Assembly: GCA_937936355.1 (NCBI GenBank)
Contig: CALDDM010000030.1
Coordinates: forward strand, 1-56,484
Reading direction: 5' to 3'
Length of the DNA stretch: 56,484 nt
Source of the DNA: Minisyncoccota bacterium
GTDB taxonomy: Bacteria; Patescibacteriota; Minisyncoccia; Moranbacterales; GCA-2747515
The notes under the pieces were generated by a model. The model was given only the letters and a program-made list of their open reading frames with translations, made no database searches and was not told where the DNA came from. Position 1 is the stretch's first letter. Each line of letters begins with the position of its first letter. The position numbers were made by a program, and so were the translations under genes. Of this stretch, positions 3,354-56,484 are shown one piece after another.

Positions 3354-3830
3354 ATGCAAAGTCACGAACTACAAACAACCAGAAGGACCAAAAAACGCAT
3401 TGGTCGGGGGGGGAAGCGCGGAACGACTGCTGGTCGTGGAACGAAAGGTCAAAAATCACGTAGTGGTGGCAATGTAAACCCACTATTCCAGGGAGGTCGC
3501 TCATCTCTTATACAACAAATGAAGAAACTGCGTGGTTTCAAGGCATTCAGGGGAGGCAAGAAGGCAATATCTCTCAATACACTTGATAAAGAATTTGCAG
3601 ACGGAGAGAGTGTAACGATAAGTGCGCTACAAGAGAAGAAAATTATACGCGCAAATGATGCAAAAAACGGTATCAAAGTGGTTTCAGGTAAGGTTTCTAA
3701 GAAGCTCACAATAGATGCTGACATTGCACTGACTGCAACAGCAAAAGATGCAATTGAAAAAGCTGGTGGAACATGTAAAGAGCAGCCCCAACGTGAACCG
3801 CGCAACGCACGAAAAGTCCCTCTCGCATAG
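3354..3830 (+). CDS. rplO: 50S ribosomal protein L15
   Basis: KKRIGRGGKRGTTAGRGTKGQKSRSGG; follows rpsE. Confidence 0.95.
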   Translation: MQSHELQTTRRTKKRIGRGGKRGTTAGRGTKGQKSRSGGNVNPLFQGGRSSLIQQMKKLRGFKAFRGGKKAISLNTLDKEFADGESVTISALQEKKIIRANDAKNGIKVVSGKVSKKLTIDADIALTATAKDAIEKAGGTCKEQPQREPRNARKVPLA

Positions 3831-51050: not shown

Positions 51051-51122
51051 GGTCCCATCGTCTAGCGGCTAGGACATCAGGTTCTCATCCTGAAAACCGG
51101 AGTTCGATTCTCCGTGGGATCA
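51051..51122 (+). tRNA. tRNA-Glu(CTC)
   Basis: GGTCCCA/TGGGATC acceptor, TCTAGCGGCTAGGAC D-arm, anticodon loop TTCTCAT, T-arm GGAGTTCGATTCTCC. Confidence 0.95.
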
Positions 51123-52611
51123 CAACTGACGATTCATCGTCTCCAAAACCCTTGTTTTGCGCTAAGATAAGCGAAACGTGAGGTGTTCCAAATCCATCTT
51201 TTCCATATCGCGGCTTTTCAGAAAAAATCAAACCCTGCAAAAGGAGTTTTTTGTCGTAATCTGACTTTTTCCAGAGTGTTGGGAGATCTTTAATTTGCTC
51301 AAAGACAATTGATATGACTTTATCGAGATCGATTTCTTCGTGCTGTAACTGACTATGCTTTGCATGAAACTTTTGGATACGAGCACTCAATTCATCCAAT
51401 GAATCTTTGAAATCAGCATCAGAGATAAGTTCTCGTGTTTTCATGCCAATGAGTCCCTTCTTTTCCTCCTCAAGTCGCTCTAAAGCTGCTTGAGAGGCCT
51501 TACGATCTTTCTCTATATCTTTGTATCGATTCTTCCACAAATCCATTATAATCACTTTCTGCGCTTTCAAAACACTCTCGTTTGGTGTTAGGCCAACGAG
51601 ATTCTTGACAAATGCTTTTTCAAGTTTATCTTTTGCTACTGATTTGAGTTTTCCACAGTCTTTGTTGTAGCATCGGTAGAATGGATATTTTTTACCTGAC
51701 TTACCTGTGGAATAGGCTGCAGTCAGTGGGCGAGCACAGTATGTGCAATGCACAAAGTTTCTGAGTGGGAAGTCTTGTGATTTCTCCTTCTTTGTTTTGT
51801 ATGTTGATTTACCATTTTTCTGTGCAATAATTTCTTGGCACCTGTAGTATATCTCTTCTGTGATGATGGATTTATGTGTTCCTGGATAATAATTGCCAGA
51901 GGATTCCACGTACATCACACCATGGTAGAACGTACGATTTATAATTTTTGACATAGTTTGTGCGGTAATCTCTTTTCCATTTTCGGTGCGTAGTCCTCGT
52001 TTGTTTGCTTTCTGGCGGATTTCCTCTAGTGTGTAGACTCCTTTTACAAATTGTTCAAAAACCCACTTAATGTGAGGGGCTCTTTCTGGATCTACGTCAA
52101 TCGTCTTTTTGCTGCCATCTCTTCCATTAACATAACCGATTGGTGCTTTCCATACCCATACACCTTGTTTAAGTTTTTCCTCCATGCAGGAAGAGATACG
52201 CTCGCTCTTGAGGTCATTGTCGAGTTGAGCATTTGCTGCCATCACATGCCCTATAAACTTTCCAGTGGGAGAGTTATCGATATTCTCTGTAGTGGAAATG
52301 AGTTGAATATTCAATTTCTTGAGCATCAAATCGATACTCGAATAATCATTCATATTGCGTGAAAGACGATCAATCTTGTAGACGATTACGCAATCAGTTT
52401 TCTTGTGATTTTTAGCACAGTGTTCAAGAAGTGCTTGTAGTCCTTTGCGATTAGTTGTTTTTGCAGAAACTCCATCATCATGAAATATTTCTTGCACATC
52501 AATACAATGATGTCTGGCATAATCGAGACATGCTCTTTTTTGTTGCTCTAGACTCACACCTTTCTCTGCCTGATCTTCGGTGGAGACTCGGTAGTAAATG
52601 ATTGCATTCAT
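51085..52611 (-). CDS. large serine recombinase (resolvase + recombinase + zinc ribbon)
   Basis: MNAIIYYRVSTEDQAEKGVSLEQQKRACLDYA; IVYKIDRLSRNMNDYSSI; CTYCARPL...FYRCYNKDC zinc ribbon; C-term PRRIELRFSG* is antisense to tRNA-Glu; start refined from 52710. Confidence 0.93.
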   Translation of the reverse strand: MNAIIYYRVSTEDQAEKGVSLEQQKRACLDYARHHCIDVQEIFHDDGVSAKTTNRKGLQALLEHCAKNHKKTDCVIVYKIDRLSRNMNDYSSIDLMLKKLNIQLISTTENIDNSPTGKFIGHVMAANAQLDNDLKSERISSCMEEKLKQGVWVWKAPIGYVNGRDGSKKTIDVDPERAPHIKWVFEQFVKGVYTLEEIRQKANKRGLRTENGKEITAQTMSKIINRTFYHGVMYVESSGNYYPGTHKSIITEEIYYRCQEIIAQKNGKSTYKTKKEKSQDFPLRNFVHCTYCARPLTAAYSTGKSGKKYPFYRCYNKDCGKLKSVAKDKLEKAFVKNLVGLTPNESVLKAQKVIIMDLWKNRYKDIEKDRKASQAALERLEEEKKGLIGMKTRELISDADFKDSLDELSARIQKFHAKHSQLQHEEIDLDKVISIVFEQIKDLPTLWKKSDYDKKLLLQGLIFSEKPRYGKDGFGTPHVSLILAQNKGFGDDESSVVIPRRIELRFSG

Positions 52612-52636
52612 AGTATTTTTAATTTGAAAATGAAAA

Positions 52637-52760
52637 GGAGCGACTATTGCCTGAACCCCAACATCGCAACCGATGATGGAAACAATAAATCGCTCCGTTT
52701 GATGCCACAAAAAAGTATCCTTTTACGGCATAGGTTGGTTGCAACTATTGTTGGGGTTCA
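52637..52760. repeat. two interleaved inverted-repeat pairs upstream of the recombinase
   Basis: GGAGCGA (52637-52643)/TCGCTCC (52690-52696); TGAACCCCAACA..GCAACC (52652-52671)/GGTTGC..TGTTGGGGTTCA (52737-52760). Confidence 0.8.
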
Positions 52761-52994: not shown

Positions 52995-53993
52995 TTAGGC
53001 TAAAGTATAGATTTTTGTATTTCCGACACCTTTTGTTTCTACAAGTTCACCATCAATTTTTAAATCATCAATGATTCGCTTGGTAGATTTTTCGGCCGAT
53101 TTAAGTAGTTTTTGGATGTCACCTTTTTTGAGTCCATCTCCATGCTCTTTTAAAAGGTTGAGTATATCTTCTCTTAATTTCTCAGTCATCGGTTTTTGAG
53201 ATCCCTGAAATTCAAAAGAGAAATGCTCATCATCAGAGGCAACTTTAAGTTCAAATGGATCAGTCTCGGGACTGTAGCGTGCTTTCGGATTGCTGATAAA
53301 AACACTATTTTGCACACCAGTCTTTTTACCAATATGGATGTAGGAATCAATAGCTGCCATAATGTCTGATGATCCTCGTAAAGCATCTTTTTCAGACCCA
53401 ATAGAATGCTTTTTCGTGTGATGAAGGATGATAATTGTGGCTCCCGCTCTGGTTAAATCCTTAAACTTTTGAAACACCTTCGACATAGCGCCAGCATCAT
53501 TTTCTTCTGAATCATGAAATCGTGTCAGTGAATCAAAGATGACCACCTCCACACCTTGGTGCATCGCAAGTTCTAAGATCTCTTGTGTCATATCTGATTG
53601 ATCAAATATCAGATCTTCTTCATCAGGATCAAAATCCATTTTCATATCTGGTTGTGATGAGAAGTAAAACTCTTCATCTATCTCTTGACTATAGCCAAGC
53701 ATTTGAATTCTTTTTTGCACTTCTCGTGGGTGGTTTTCACCATCCAAAACTAAAACTTTTCTTTTCTTGCAAGGAAACTTTCCAAAGAGACTTTCGCCAT
53801 TTGCGATACATTTCGTCATCTCGAGAGAGATCCATGATTTATATTCTCCAGGCTTACCTCCAATAATTGTAATGCCCTCAGCAGGTACGAGACCTTCGAC
53901 TACCCATGGAATATCAGGGAAGTCTATGTTGAGCAGATCATGCGAACTGACAATAGAGCCATAAATATTCTCGTGATCAAATTGATCGTTCAT
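52995..53993 (-). CDS. RepA-like AAA (AAA_25-type) ATPase/helicase with C-terminal winged-helix-like region
   Basis: Walker A-like GGKPGEYKSWISLEM; Walker B VEVVIFDSLTRF; TIIILHHTKK; RGSSDIMAAIDSYI. Confidence 0.85.
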   Translation of the reverse strand: MNDQFDHENIYGSIVSSHDLLNIDFPDIPWVVEGLVPAEGITIIGGKPGEYKSWISLEMTKCIANGESLFGKFPCKKRKVLVLDGENHPREVQKRIQMLGYSQEIDEEFYFSSQPDMKMDFDPDEEDLIFDQSDMTQEILELAMHQGVEVVIFDSLTRFHDSEENDAGAMSKVFQKFKDLTRAGATIIILHHTKKHSIGSEKDALRGSSDIMAAIDSYIHIGKKTGVQNSVFISNPKARYSPETDPFELKVASDDEHFSFEFQGSQKPMTEKLREDILNLLKEHGDGLKKGDIQKLLKSAEKSTKRIIDDLKIDGELVETKGVGNTKIYTLA

Positions 53994-54132: not shown

Positions 54133-55038
54133 TTATTTCATATATTCACCATTCACTTTTTTGACCTCAGTGTTGAACTGCGAGCGAATTAAATTGATAT
54201 TTTCATACTCATAGCTTTTGATGTTTGGAAGTCTTTCTTCCTCAGCCCAAGAAGCTATACGTGTATCCGGAGAGAAGCTTAAATCCTTAATCGCTGCTTT
54301 TTTGAGGTCAATATACTTATTGTGTATTTTAATTTTTGAAAAAAGACTCTTATCTGATGTGTCTCGATTTTTACTTGGTTTGGTACCTTTTAAGTTTGGT
54401 ATTATTTTGTCCCAGTCATGGTCGATGAACTTCTTGAGATCTTCCTTTTTTGAGTTTCGATTAAGTTGAACAATACAAACTTCCTCGCTTTCTATTCTCT
54501 TTTTGAGAATATCCTCATTCGAGATGCATGAACAAGTACTGTCATGACGGATTTTTGAAAAGGCATCCATGAAAAGGCTTTTGTTAAGGACGTATACTTG
54601 ATTACCCTGCGCCAAAGATCCAATTTTTAGATCATCACGTAGATTGATAATTTCTTCGAGTACTGCATCAGAGAGATTTAGGAAGTCAAAATGGGAAATA
54701 TTGTTTTCTTTGAGGTAGGTATTGTTCGCGATATATTTGTCATCAATATCACTTTCTTCCAAGAAGTCATTTACAAGGTCAGCAGAGTTTGGGTGCCATA
54801 CCCATTTGGTGATAGTTTTTCTTTCCATCTTGCTTTCAGAGCTCTTTTTCAGTTCAGTCACCTCATTTTCTTTGATAATTACCTCAGAGCTAAAGCTATC
54901 AATTTTTTTGTACAACAGAGTGCTCTTTTTGTGAAGTATATAGAACTTTAAAATCTTCGCTTCTAAGTGTTTCTTCTCCGAAAGTAATCGAGAGTATAAA
55001 TCAGCAAACAAAGGGTCAATCTTTATTTTTCTTCTCAT
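54133..55038 (-). CDS. hypothetical protein (301 aa)
   Basis: Long ORF in same orientation as the ATPase; no recognised domain. Confidence 0.6.
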   Translation of the reverse strand: MRRKIKIDPLFADLYSRLLSEKKHLEAKILKFYILHKKSTLLYKKIDSFSSEVIIKENEVTELKKSSESKMERKTITKWVWHPNSADLVNDFLEESDIDDKYIANNTYLKENNISHFDFLNLSDAVLEEIINLRDDLKIGSLAQGNQVYVLNKSLFMDAFSKIRHDSTCSCISNEDILKKRIESEEVCIVQLNRNSKKEDLKKFIDHDWDKIIPNLKGTKPSKNRDTSDKSLFSKIKIHNKYIDLKKAAIKDLSFSPDTRIASWAEEERLPNIKSYEYENINLIRSQFNTEVKKVNGEYMK

Positions 55039-55096
55039 TTAATTGAAAATAGTGATTATATATACTACACTAAGAATACAACTTAATAGGCCCAAC

Positions 55097-55235
55097 CGCC
55101 ATTTTTGGTGAGTGGTCTAAAAATCGTTCAAAGCAATAACCTCCTCATGAGGATGCTTTGAACGTCACAGGTAGGAATATCTGTGGAGTCAGCAATGACT
55201 CGCCTTGTGGGGAGTTTTTTGTTTTCCCACAAGGC
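55097..55235. other. array of back-to-back hairpins (possible structured RNA or replication/transfer origin)
   Basis: CGCCA/TGGTG (55097-55110), CGTTCAAAGCA/TGCTTTGAACG (55125-55164), CACAG/CTGTG (55166-55185), GAGTCA/TGACTC (55186-55201), GCCTTGTGGG/CCCACAAGGC (55202-55235). Confidence 0.8.
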
Positions 55236-55257
55236 CATACTTGAATTATGTGTTTTT

Positions 55258-55539
55258 ATGGAACCTAGTTTTATCTCACAACTTTTACATCTCATTTTCT
55301 TTGGTGGCGCTGCATTTATCCTGAAAAGAACATTTTTTGTCGGATCAGGTATCAAAATAATTGAGTGGAGAACTACGTGCCTTTTGGCAGGTCTATACAT
55401 TCTTGGTGCTGCATATCCTGCGTATAAATACGGCATTCAGGAAGTCCACATTATTACACTGGTTGCAATTGTAATGATTTTACGTTCGCAACAGATAGCA
55501 ACTTTTTCAAATACATCAAAGAGCAATGAAAATCGATAA
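55258..55539 (+). CDS. small membrane protein (hypothetical)
   Basis: MEPSFISQLLHLIFFGGAAFILKRTFF...CLLAGLYILGAAYPAYKYG...IITLVAIVMIL; the ORF-track start at 55183 runs through two hairpins, ATG 55258 is more plausible. Confidence 0.55.
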   Translation: MEPSFISQLLHLIFFGGAAFILKRTFFVGSGIKIIEWRTTCLLAGLYILGAAYPAYKYGIQEVHIITLVAIVMILRSQQIATFSNTSKSNENR

Positions 55540-56484
55540 ATATTATCCAGACTACTTCCAAAAAGATGTCCTATTACTGCAGGATATTGGCATCGATTGT
55601 CTGTGTGGCCGCGTCTTTCAGGGTGCTGTCAGAGAATATAAGGAACAATTTGCTAACCTCAAGCTTTTTGTACTATGTTCCTATGAGATCAATCTCATTG
55701 ATCAAATCATCTATACTCACTTTCAAGATGATCATAACGCGTGGATCAGTAATGTTGGTCCCTTTATTTCTTCCCGTTGCACATATGAAAGTTTGCCGCA
55801 TAAGCCACTGATCCATCTCGCAAAGATCTCGGAGTTAATGTTATACGAAGATATTACTGAGGCAGACCATTTTTTCTTTGGTCTACTTGCTGAAATGGCG
55901 AATCAAGATCAGTTCACAACACTGACAATCAAAAATATAACGGAAAAGATGAAAGAGGATCGTGACGTTCTCAAGGCAAAATCCGACCTAAGGAGACTAT
56001 TCTCAAAAAGTGAAAGACAAAGGAGTGTTCGAGGGAAGGTCTTGGTAAATCAAGTTTCTGTAGAAACGCCAGATGATCTAGATGAATTACTATATGCAGA
56101 CACACGGCTCATATGGCAGGAACATCTAAGTGAGAACGATCTGAGCCTTCAAAAGATCAAAAAACATAAGAATGATAAAGGGTATTCATCGTTTACTACT
56201 GTGAAATCAGGAAAGGTTTTTGAGCGACAAGAAGAATATTGGACAGTCAAAGATTGTGAAAGTGGGGATCTCTACCTTCTGATCTCAAAAAAGTCAGTAA
56301 CTGATAATCATATCAAGGACGAAGAGGGGGCTGCAGGAAGAGGGCTTATTCTCCAAGAGTTTAATTACTATTTCCCATGTAGAGACGAAGTAGAAATTGA
56401 CGATATATTGTTTGAACCGATTATCAATATCGATTATGAGGAAAGTTTGCAGAGAAAATATATTTTTCACTATGTGATGAGCGA
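55526..56484 (+). CDS. hypothetical protein, 3' truncated by window end
   Basis: Open frame of 319 codons, not in the ORF track because no stop falls in the window: MKIDKYYPDYFQKDVLLLQDIGIDCLCGRVFQGAVREYKEQFANLKLFVLCSYEINLIDQ... Confidence 0.75.
   Translation, partial: MKIDKYYPDYFQKDVLLLQDIGIDCLCGRVFQGAVREYKEQFANLKLFVLCSYEINLIDQIIYTHFQDDHNAWISNVGPFISSRCTYESLPHKPLIHLAKISELMLYEDITEADHFFFGLLAEMANQDQFTTLTIKNITEKMKEDRDVLKAKSDLRRLFSKSERQRSVRGKVLVNQVSVETPDDLDELLYADTRLIWQEHLSENDLSLQKIKKHKNDKGYSSFTTVKSGKVFERQEEYWTVKDCESGDLYLLISKKSVTDNHIKDEEGAAGRGLILQEFNYYFPCRDEVEIDDILFEPIINIDYEESLQRKYIFHYVMS

Follow-up and report, generated by a model that had tools for sequence, protein, structure and literature searches.

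What does a dense run of hairpins do in a short non-coding gap, four kilobases from a tRNA-Glu gene? The hairpins lie at 55087-55235 of a 56,484-nucleotide stretch of DNA from a Minisyncoccota bacterium (contig CALDDM010000030.1), here called the window. A sequence-only reading had placed five stems in this gap. The gap is indeed non-coding (219 nt between an ORF at 54133-55038(-) and a probable start at 55258(+)), and all five stems are found where they had been placed. One of them, CACAG/CTGTG, is present, but the 5 bp assigned to it are too few; the stem is actually 8 bp long (55166-55173/55178-55185) and is closed by a GGAA loop. The 11-bp stem CGTTCAAAGCA/TGCTTTGAACG (55125-55135/55154-55164) encloses TCCTCATGAGGA (55142-55153). 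The remaining stems include GAGTCA-GCAA-TGACTC (55186-55201) and the fifth stem GCCTTGTGGG/CCCACAAGGC (55202-55211/55226-55235), which carries a T-run inside its loop. Folding of 55085-55240 as RNA yields -73.7 kcal/mol, whereas dinucleotide shuffles average -38.3 +/- 3.9 (z -9.2; none of 200 as good), and folding as DNA yields a z of -7.0. By both measures the array is far beyond chance. One pairing had been overlooked: the loop of the 11-bp stem (55141-55152) can form 12 bp with 55203-55214, immediately 5' of the T-run.

Judged by its match to an Rfam model, the hairpin array is a known RNA class without known function, namely LOOT (RF03000), and not the feature of an undescribed element that had been suggested. 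The window copy scores above the gathering cut-off of 46.4 bits, with model positions 1-121 of 121 aligned, and LOOT is the sole non-tRNA Rfam family above cut-off in the window. The first four stems correspond to P1 to P4 of the Rfam structure, while the fifth falls outside the model; the P1 of the window copy is short relative to that model. The features of the RNA, all on the forward strand, are as follows.

55061-55066 (+): possible -10 box of the LOOT promoter, TATACT (predicted from the sequence).
55089-55201 (+): LOOT RNA, Rfam-model part (P1-P4), RF03000 (cmscan, 69.6 bits, E 4e-11).
55087-55120, approximately (+): P1 hairpin (fold, Rfam alignment).
55125-55164 (+): P2 hairpin, arms 55125-55135/55154-55164, a variable, almost strictly Watson-Crick 'address' helix (fold, covariation).
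55141-55152 (+): 5' strand of the 3' pseudoknot, within the P2 loop (12 bp with 55203-55214).
55166-55185 (+): P3 hairpin, GGAA loop (fold).
55186-55201 (+): P4 hairpin, GCAA loop (fold).
55203-55220 (+): pseudoknot 3' strand (55203-55214) and T-run (55215-55220), a terminator-like 3' end outside the Rfam model (complementarity; predicted terminator).
55202-55235 (+): competing hairpin (the fifth stem), 10 bp, or 13 with G-U; mutually exclusive with the pseudoknot (fold; strongest of 113 copies).

LOOT was reportedly first described by Weinberg et al. in 2017. The literature searched, consisting of papers other than that original description, mentions neither the element context nor the start-region copies of LOOT. 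Cross-covariation in LOOT has been noted in a methods paper (PMC7657543). At the level of sequence comparison, what is new here is the mobile-element home, the 3' extension, the near absence of G-U pairs in P2 and the start-region copies of the P2 5' arm.

The neighboring genes place the window copy in a mobile element. That the array lies in such an element, as had been proposed, is borne out by a serine integrase beside a tRNA-Glu gene, by a primase/helicase-like ATPase and by the same association across copies; only the novelty of its RNA falls away, as the family had already been described. The nearby ATPase-like gene and the flanking divergent genes of no assigned family were likewise seen correctly.

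51085-52710 (-): large serine integrase of the element (Resolvase, Recombinase and Zn ribbon in Pfam; phrog_95 integrase, E 2e-90).
52995-53993 (-): RecA-fold ATPase like phage primase-helicases (Pfam AAA_25, E 1e-30; phrog_906, phrog_239).
54133-55038 (-): divergent gene, 301 aa (ORF; without Pfam or PHROGs match).
55258-55539 (+): hydrophobic protein of 93 aa, the next gene and presumed cargo, with LOOT as leader (ORF; without family).

Starting from tRNA-Glu (51051-51123), the order is integrase(-), AAA_25 ATPase(-), 301-aa gene(-), LOOT in the divergent gap and the 93-aa gene(+); the products of the last two genes have no match in Pfam or PHROGs. The element edge lies at the tRNA-Glu gene, 4 kb from LOOT, and the contig ends inside the element. 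The integrase frame overlaps the tRNA gene, and its true start may be internal to the frame. The tRNA-Glu 3' end (window 51108-51128) recurs exactly, over 21 nt, at G000:C24:12629-12649(-) (L439), there outside any tRNA gene; from its sequence, this second copy is a candidate for the other attachment end of the window element.

The source genome carries four LOOT copies. Across the Patescibacteria, the distribution is patchy: LOOT was found in 83 of the 380 genomes sampled, with up to seven copies per genome. Named matches in GTDB are nearly all from this group (Levy-, Uhr-, Moran-, Yanofsky-, Peregrini-, Saccharibacteria and others), and the few from elsewhere may be chance pattern matches or binning errors. 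A search of IMG/VR, where a loose first pattern was expected to give mostly chance matches and a stricter one was then verified with the Rfam model, yielded 7 contigs with 8 LOOT copies above the Rfam cut-off. The base set consists of 115 copies oriented with their flanks. Of these, 81 have a large serine recombinase within 10 kb; at its density in relatives (about 1 per Mb) only a few per cent would be predicted. Some copies are near phage terminase genes. No protein family is common to all copies, and the LOOT distribution does not track the rep-like gene to which the array had been linked.

The relation to the next gene is more constant. This gene lies on the LOOT strand in 97 of 113 copies, mostly 45-80 nt beyond the Rfam end. 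A -10-like box is present at -50 to -8 of LOOT in 83 of 113 copies, compared with 42 of 226 control stretches. The next genes themselves are highly mixed (DNA methylases, staphylococcal-nuclease-like, DUF2726, zinc-ribbon, other small membrane proteins, peptidoglycan-binding, an integrase); by analogy, the mixture is one that resembles phage cargo genes.

Several loci show particular arrangements. In G191, a 3.7-kb contig begins and ends with identical LOOTs, which also stand at the ends of two other contigs (L152, L153; C25:1-121 and 3537-3658, C40:4900-5021, C88:1-121). Either these copies apparently bracket a unit of 3.5 kb, or the population holds versions of the element that differ downstream of LOOT. 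The tandem LOOT-gene-LOOT-gene of L128 (G207:C3:17612 and 17988), with homologous small genes, looks as if LOOT and gene form one duplicating cassette. At six loci an excisionase-like HTH protein of 65-76 aa (cluster 8; phrog_66, E 2e-6) is encoded directly ahead of LOOT and on its strand, 220-260 nt upstream (e.g. G451:C1.89639, G133:C9).

The 3' end of LOOT reaches further than its Rfam model. In nearly all copies the P2 loop is complementary (median 11 bp) to the strand directly before the U-run, and the score threshold for this pseudoknot helix is reached by 92% of own pairs, compared with 19% of swapped and 7% of shuffled tails. The window helix 55141-55152/55203-55214 is followed by TTTTTT, which gives the G+C-rich helix before a U-run of an intrinsic terminator, in a form other than the simple hairpin. 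By this complementarity, LOOT extends 3' of the Rfam model, in which the 3' pseudoknot and U-run are absent, into a pseudoknot-type putative terminator. The array as a whole is indeed no simple terminator, as had been stated; its end, however, is a terminator-like pseudoknot helix with a U-run. The pseudoknot 3' strand can alternatively pair with the sequence after the U-run, a pairing that forms the fifth stem in the window. This competing hairpin reaches its threshold in 62 of 113 copies, compared with 22% of swapped ones, and no copy shows it more strongly than that of the window. The two structures are mutually exclusive, like the alternatives in attenuators.

P2 behaves differently from the other helices. 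It varies at every position, and all four Watson-Crick pairs occur at most positions among the 115 copies, which, together with the RF03000 match, supports the reading of the array as a structured non-coding RNA. Where the scaffolds of two copies are 80-90% identical, their 5' arms are on average only 69% identical. G-U pairs make up 1.5% in P2 versus 11-22% in P1, P3, P4 and the pseudoknot. A helix this variable yet almost without wobble suggests that both arms are under some constraint beyond folding.

In part of the copies, a second occurrence of the P2 5' arm lies over the start region of the next gene. This match was first spotted by eye in 27 copies and then tested with the arms of other genomes as control. 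The arm recurs at most 160 nt downstream in 26 of 113 copies, where 0.5 would be expected: 5 of 27 in the discovery set (expected 0.10) and 21 of 86 in fresh genomes (0.65), with a further 3 of 8 in virus contigs. GTDB contigs supplied a third set of 100 copies, of which 20 were matched (0.44 expected). The matches, in about 22% of copies, are exact and 9-15 nt long. In most of 52 loci they end 0-6 nt before the ATG, so that the ribosome-binding site is covered. The 27 matched copies of the first two sets contain 21 distinct arms, and the matches are therefore not one duplicated locus. PF01555 methylase genes below different LOOTs carry different words, each matching its own LOOT.

No other part of LOOT is copied downstream above background, and thus only the P2 3' arm is complementary to the start region. 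Given the start-region copy, this arm can pair either with its own 5' arm or with the ribosome-binding region, and the two duplexes are nearly equal (-19.6 and -18.8 kcal/mol on average). The low wobble of P2 is the same in copies with and without the match (4/303 and 15/977). At 12 wobble positions in the P2 of matched loci, the start region is Watson-Crick with the 3' arm in 9, a result that is weak because start regions are A-rich. One genome, G451, has four different self-matching arms, which suggests that specificity matters and favors some trans action; the twin copies of G107, which share one address word, are a counter-example.

In the other 78% of copies, the window included, the P2 5' arm is not copied at the next gene. 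Terminase genes are nearby in 12 of 27 matched and 9 of 88 unmatched copies, and the unmatched copies may accordingly belong to other element kinds; they may instead have changed cargo.

Further targets were sought for these arms, and none emerged. The window arm has no second site downstream in its locus. Elsewhere in the genome its single ATG-adjacent match is inside a coding region on the opposite strand, and with one mismatch allowed it gives 10 matches genome-wide (4 for the reversed pattern), two of them P2 itself. Arm matches at other genes within 10 kb show no excess. Unmatched arms compared with start regions below the LOOTs of other genomes gave only a 2.7-fold excess at 10 nt, from few related arms. 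The serine-recombinase start was rejected as a general target, the match being strong in G065 alone. There (L030, G065:C37) all 13 of 13 nt of the P2 5' arm recur at the recombinase start (LOOT-relative position +1067), the only strong second-target case; a decayed second LOOT lies 3.6 kb upstream (-3596). At L052 (G012:C80), a complete LOOT is closely followed by a DNA methylase gene whose leader is a mini-LOOT, some 160-210 nt from the LOOT start and consisting of P1, an A-rich linker and the P2 5' arm only.

What, then, might LOOT do? With a probability that we put just short of even, LOOT would be an element-borne leader RNA that uses termination and self-antisense pairing to control the cargo gene beside it. 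The start-region copies in three sets, the same-strand next gene, the pseudoknot and the -10-like box all point to such a leader. In the proposed mechanism the pseudoknot and the U-run would terminate most transcripts, generating the short LOOT RNA. Where a transcript reads through, the P2 3' arm would let go of its 5' arm and pair instead with the start region, on that RNA or on a different one, thereby blocking translation of the cargo gene. The P2 arm would act as an address that keeps co-resident elements apart. The leader would thus combine two switches: termination at the pseudoknot, and a self-antisense arm able to close the cargo start site. Counting against this reading are the 78% of copies that lack the start-region word, the address shared by the G107 twins, and P2 itself, which is stable alone and forms first during transcription. 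For the window, we infer that 55089 to ~55220(+) encodes a putative LOOT RNA of roughly 150 nt, with its own predicted promoter, as a cargo-gene leader; of the steps above, we infer for this copy only termination and the general leader role.

LOOT may instead be a free-standing, trans-acting sRNA of mobile elements (e.g. a ribonucleoprotein or decoy). In that case the next gene would just happen to lie downstream, and only a subset would have specialized in start-region copies. Rfam itself classes LOOT as gene/sRNA, and the promoter-like box, the U-run end, the very mixed next genes and the 78% of copies without a start-region copy would all suit this role. It is nevertheless considered unlikely, since separate reasons would be needed for the constant same-strand spacing to the next gene and for the exact start-region copies in all sets.

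It is less probable still that LOOT is a leader acting on transcription alone, either as a put-type processive antiterminator or as a ligand-sensing attenuator in which the pseudoknot terminator alternates with the hairpin after the U-run. Start-region copies and the near absence of wobble in the variable P2 are left unexplained here, even though the terminator-like pseudoknot, the leader position ahead of mixed genes and a competing hairpin, which exceeds background in roughly half of the copies and most strongly in that of the window, are consistent with it. For ligand sensing, moreover, the binding core should be the conserved part, while P2 is the most variable helix.

A bolder version of address pairing, put forward as a speculation and quite improbable, is that LOOTs are address RNAs that can be re-programmed: on a constant scaffold, a freely varying Watson-Crick arm of 9-15 nt would silence start regions with the same word in cis and in trans, as RNA-coded immunity or cargo control, possibly with a protein partner. 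Far more doubtful is a guide-like role, in which LOOT would team up with a protein encoded by the element, for instance the serine integrase, and use its variable arm to recognize DNA. The combination of variable Watson-Crick arms and a constant scaffold, the recombinase within 10 kb of 81/115 copies and the 13/13 match to the recombinase start in G065 would fit, but no protein family accompanies all copies, recombinase starts are generally unmatched, and the matches are anchored to start codons without excess at other genes.

The weakest reading, that the hairpins work at the DNA level (as an origin of conjugation or replication, or as an attachment site), is disfavoured and highly implausible. 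The inverted repeats do fold as single-stranded DNA and lie in a mobile element beside a primase/helicase-like gene. Against this stand the promoter-like box before and the U-run after them, the GNRA-type loops, the constant strand relative to the next gene and the wobble in P1, P3, P4 and the pseudoknot, which suits RNA; the edge of the element, moreover, is 4 kb away, at tRNA-Glu. Nothing in the window points to the oriT or the theta or single-strand origin once suggested: Pfam (without a dedicated relaxase model) gave no relaxase among the window element genes, with the element running past the contig end, and 54800-55600 holds only short two-copy matches, with no direct-repeat array or iterons.

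The reading of LOOT as a cargo-gene leader can be compared with known systems. In phage P4 immunity, the CI RNA pairs with seqA upstream and seqC downstream, causing premature termination (PMC4825925). LOOT shares with it the position as mobile-element leader and the order like-antisense-like, here P2 5' arm, P2 3' arm and start-region copy; about 22% of other LOOTs show this order, while the window copy has the upstream P2 5' arm only. There is no sequence or structural homology between the two, and LOOT is larger, with its own U-run end, a variable address and single cargo genes rather than replication genes. By analogy, then, LOOT would resemble P4 CI in its working and not by membership. 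IsrK of prophage Gifsy-1 is a leader RNA that exists as short RNA and read-through mRNA, and its structure controls a start site (PMC4825925). It is likewise a prophage leader with short and read-through forms, which for LOOT are proposed; it differs in structure, host and genes, and a repeated address arm is not reported for IsrK. The lysogenic-conversion (moron) units of phages consist of their own promoter and a single, varied cargo gene in a mobile element. LOOT loci are similar in their promoter-like box and single cargo gene of varied kind, whereas ordinary morons have no conserved structured leader.

With these results, an orphan structured RNA gains a home in the mobile elements and prophages of the Patescibacteria, a vast and mostly uncultured group. 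LOOT also gains a complete 3' end and a testable mechanism, founded on exact copies of its variable arm over start codons in three sets. If this mechanism is true, mobile elements would possess an address system that regulates through RNA and is convergent with the immunity of phage P4.
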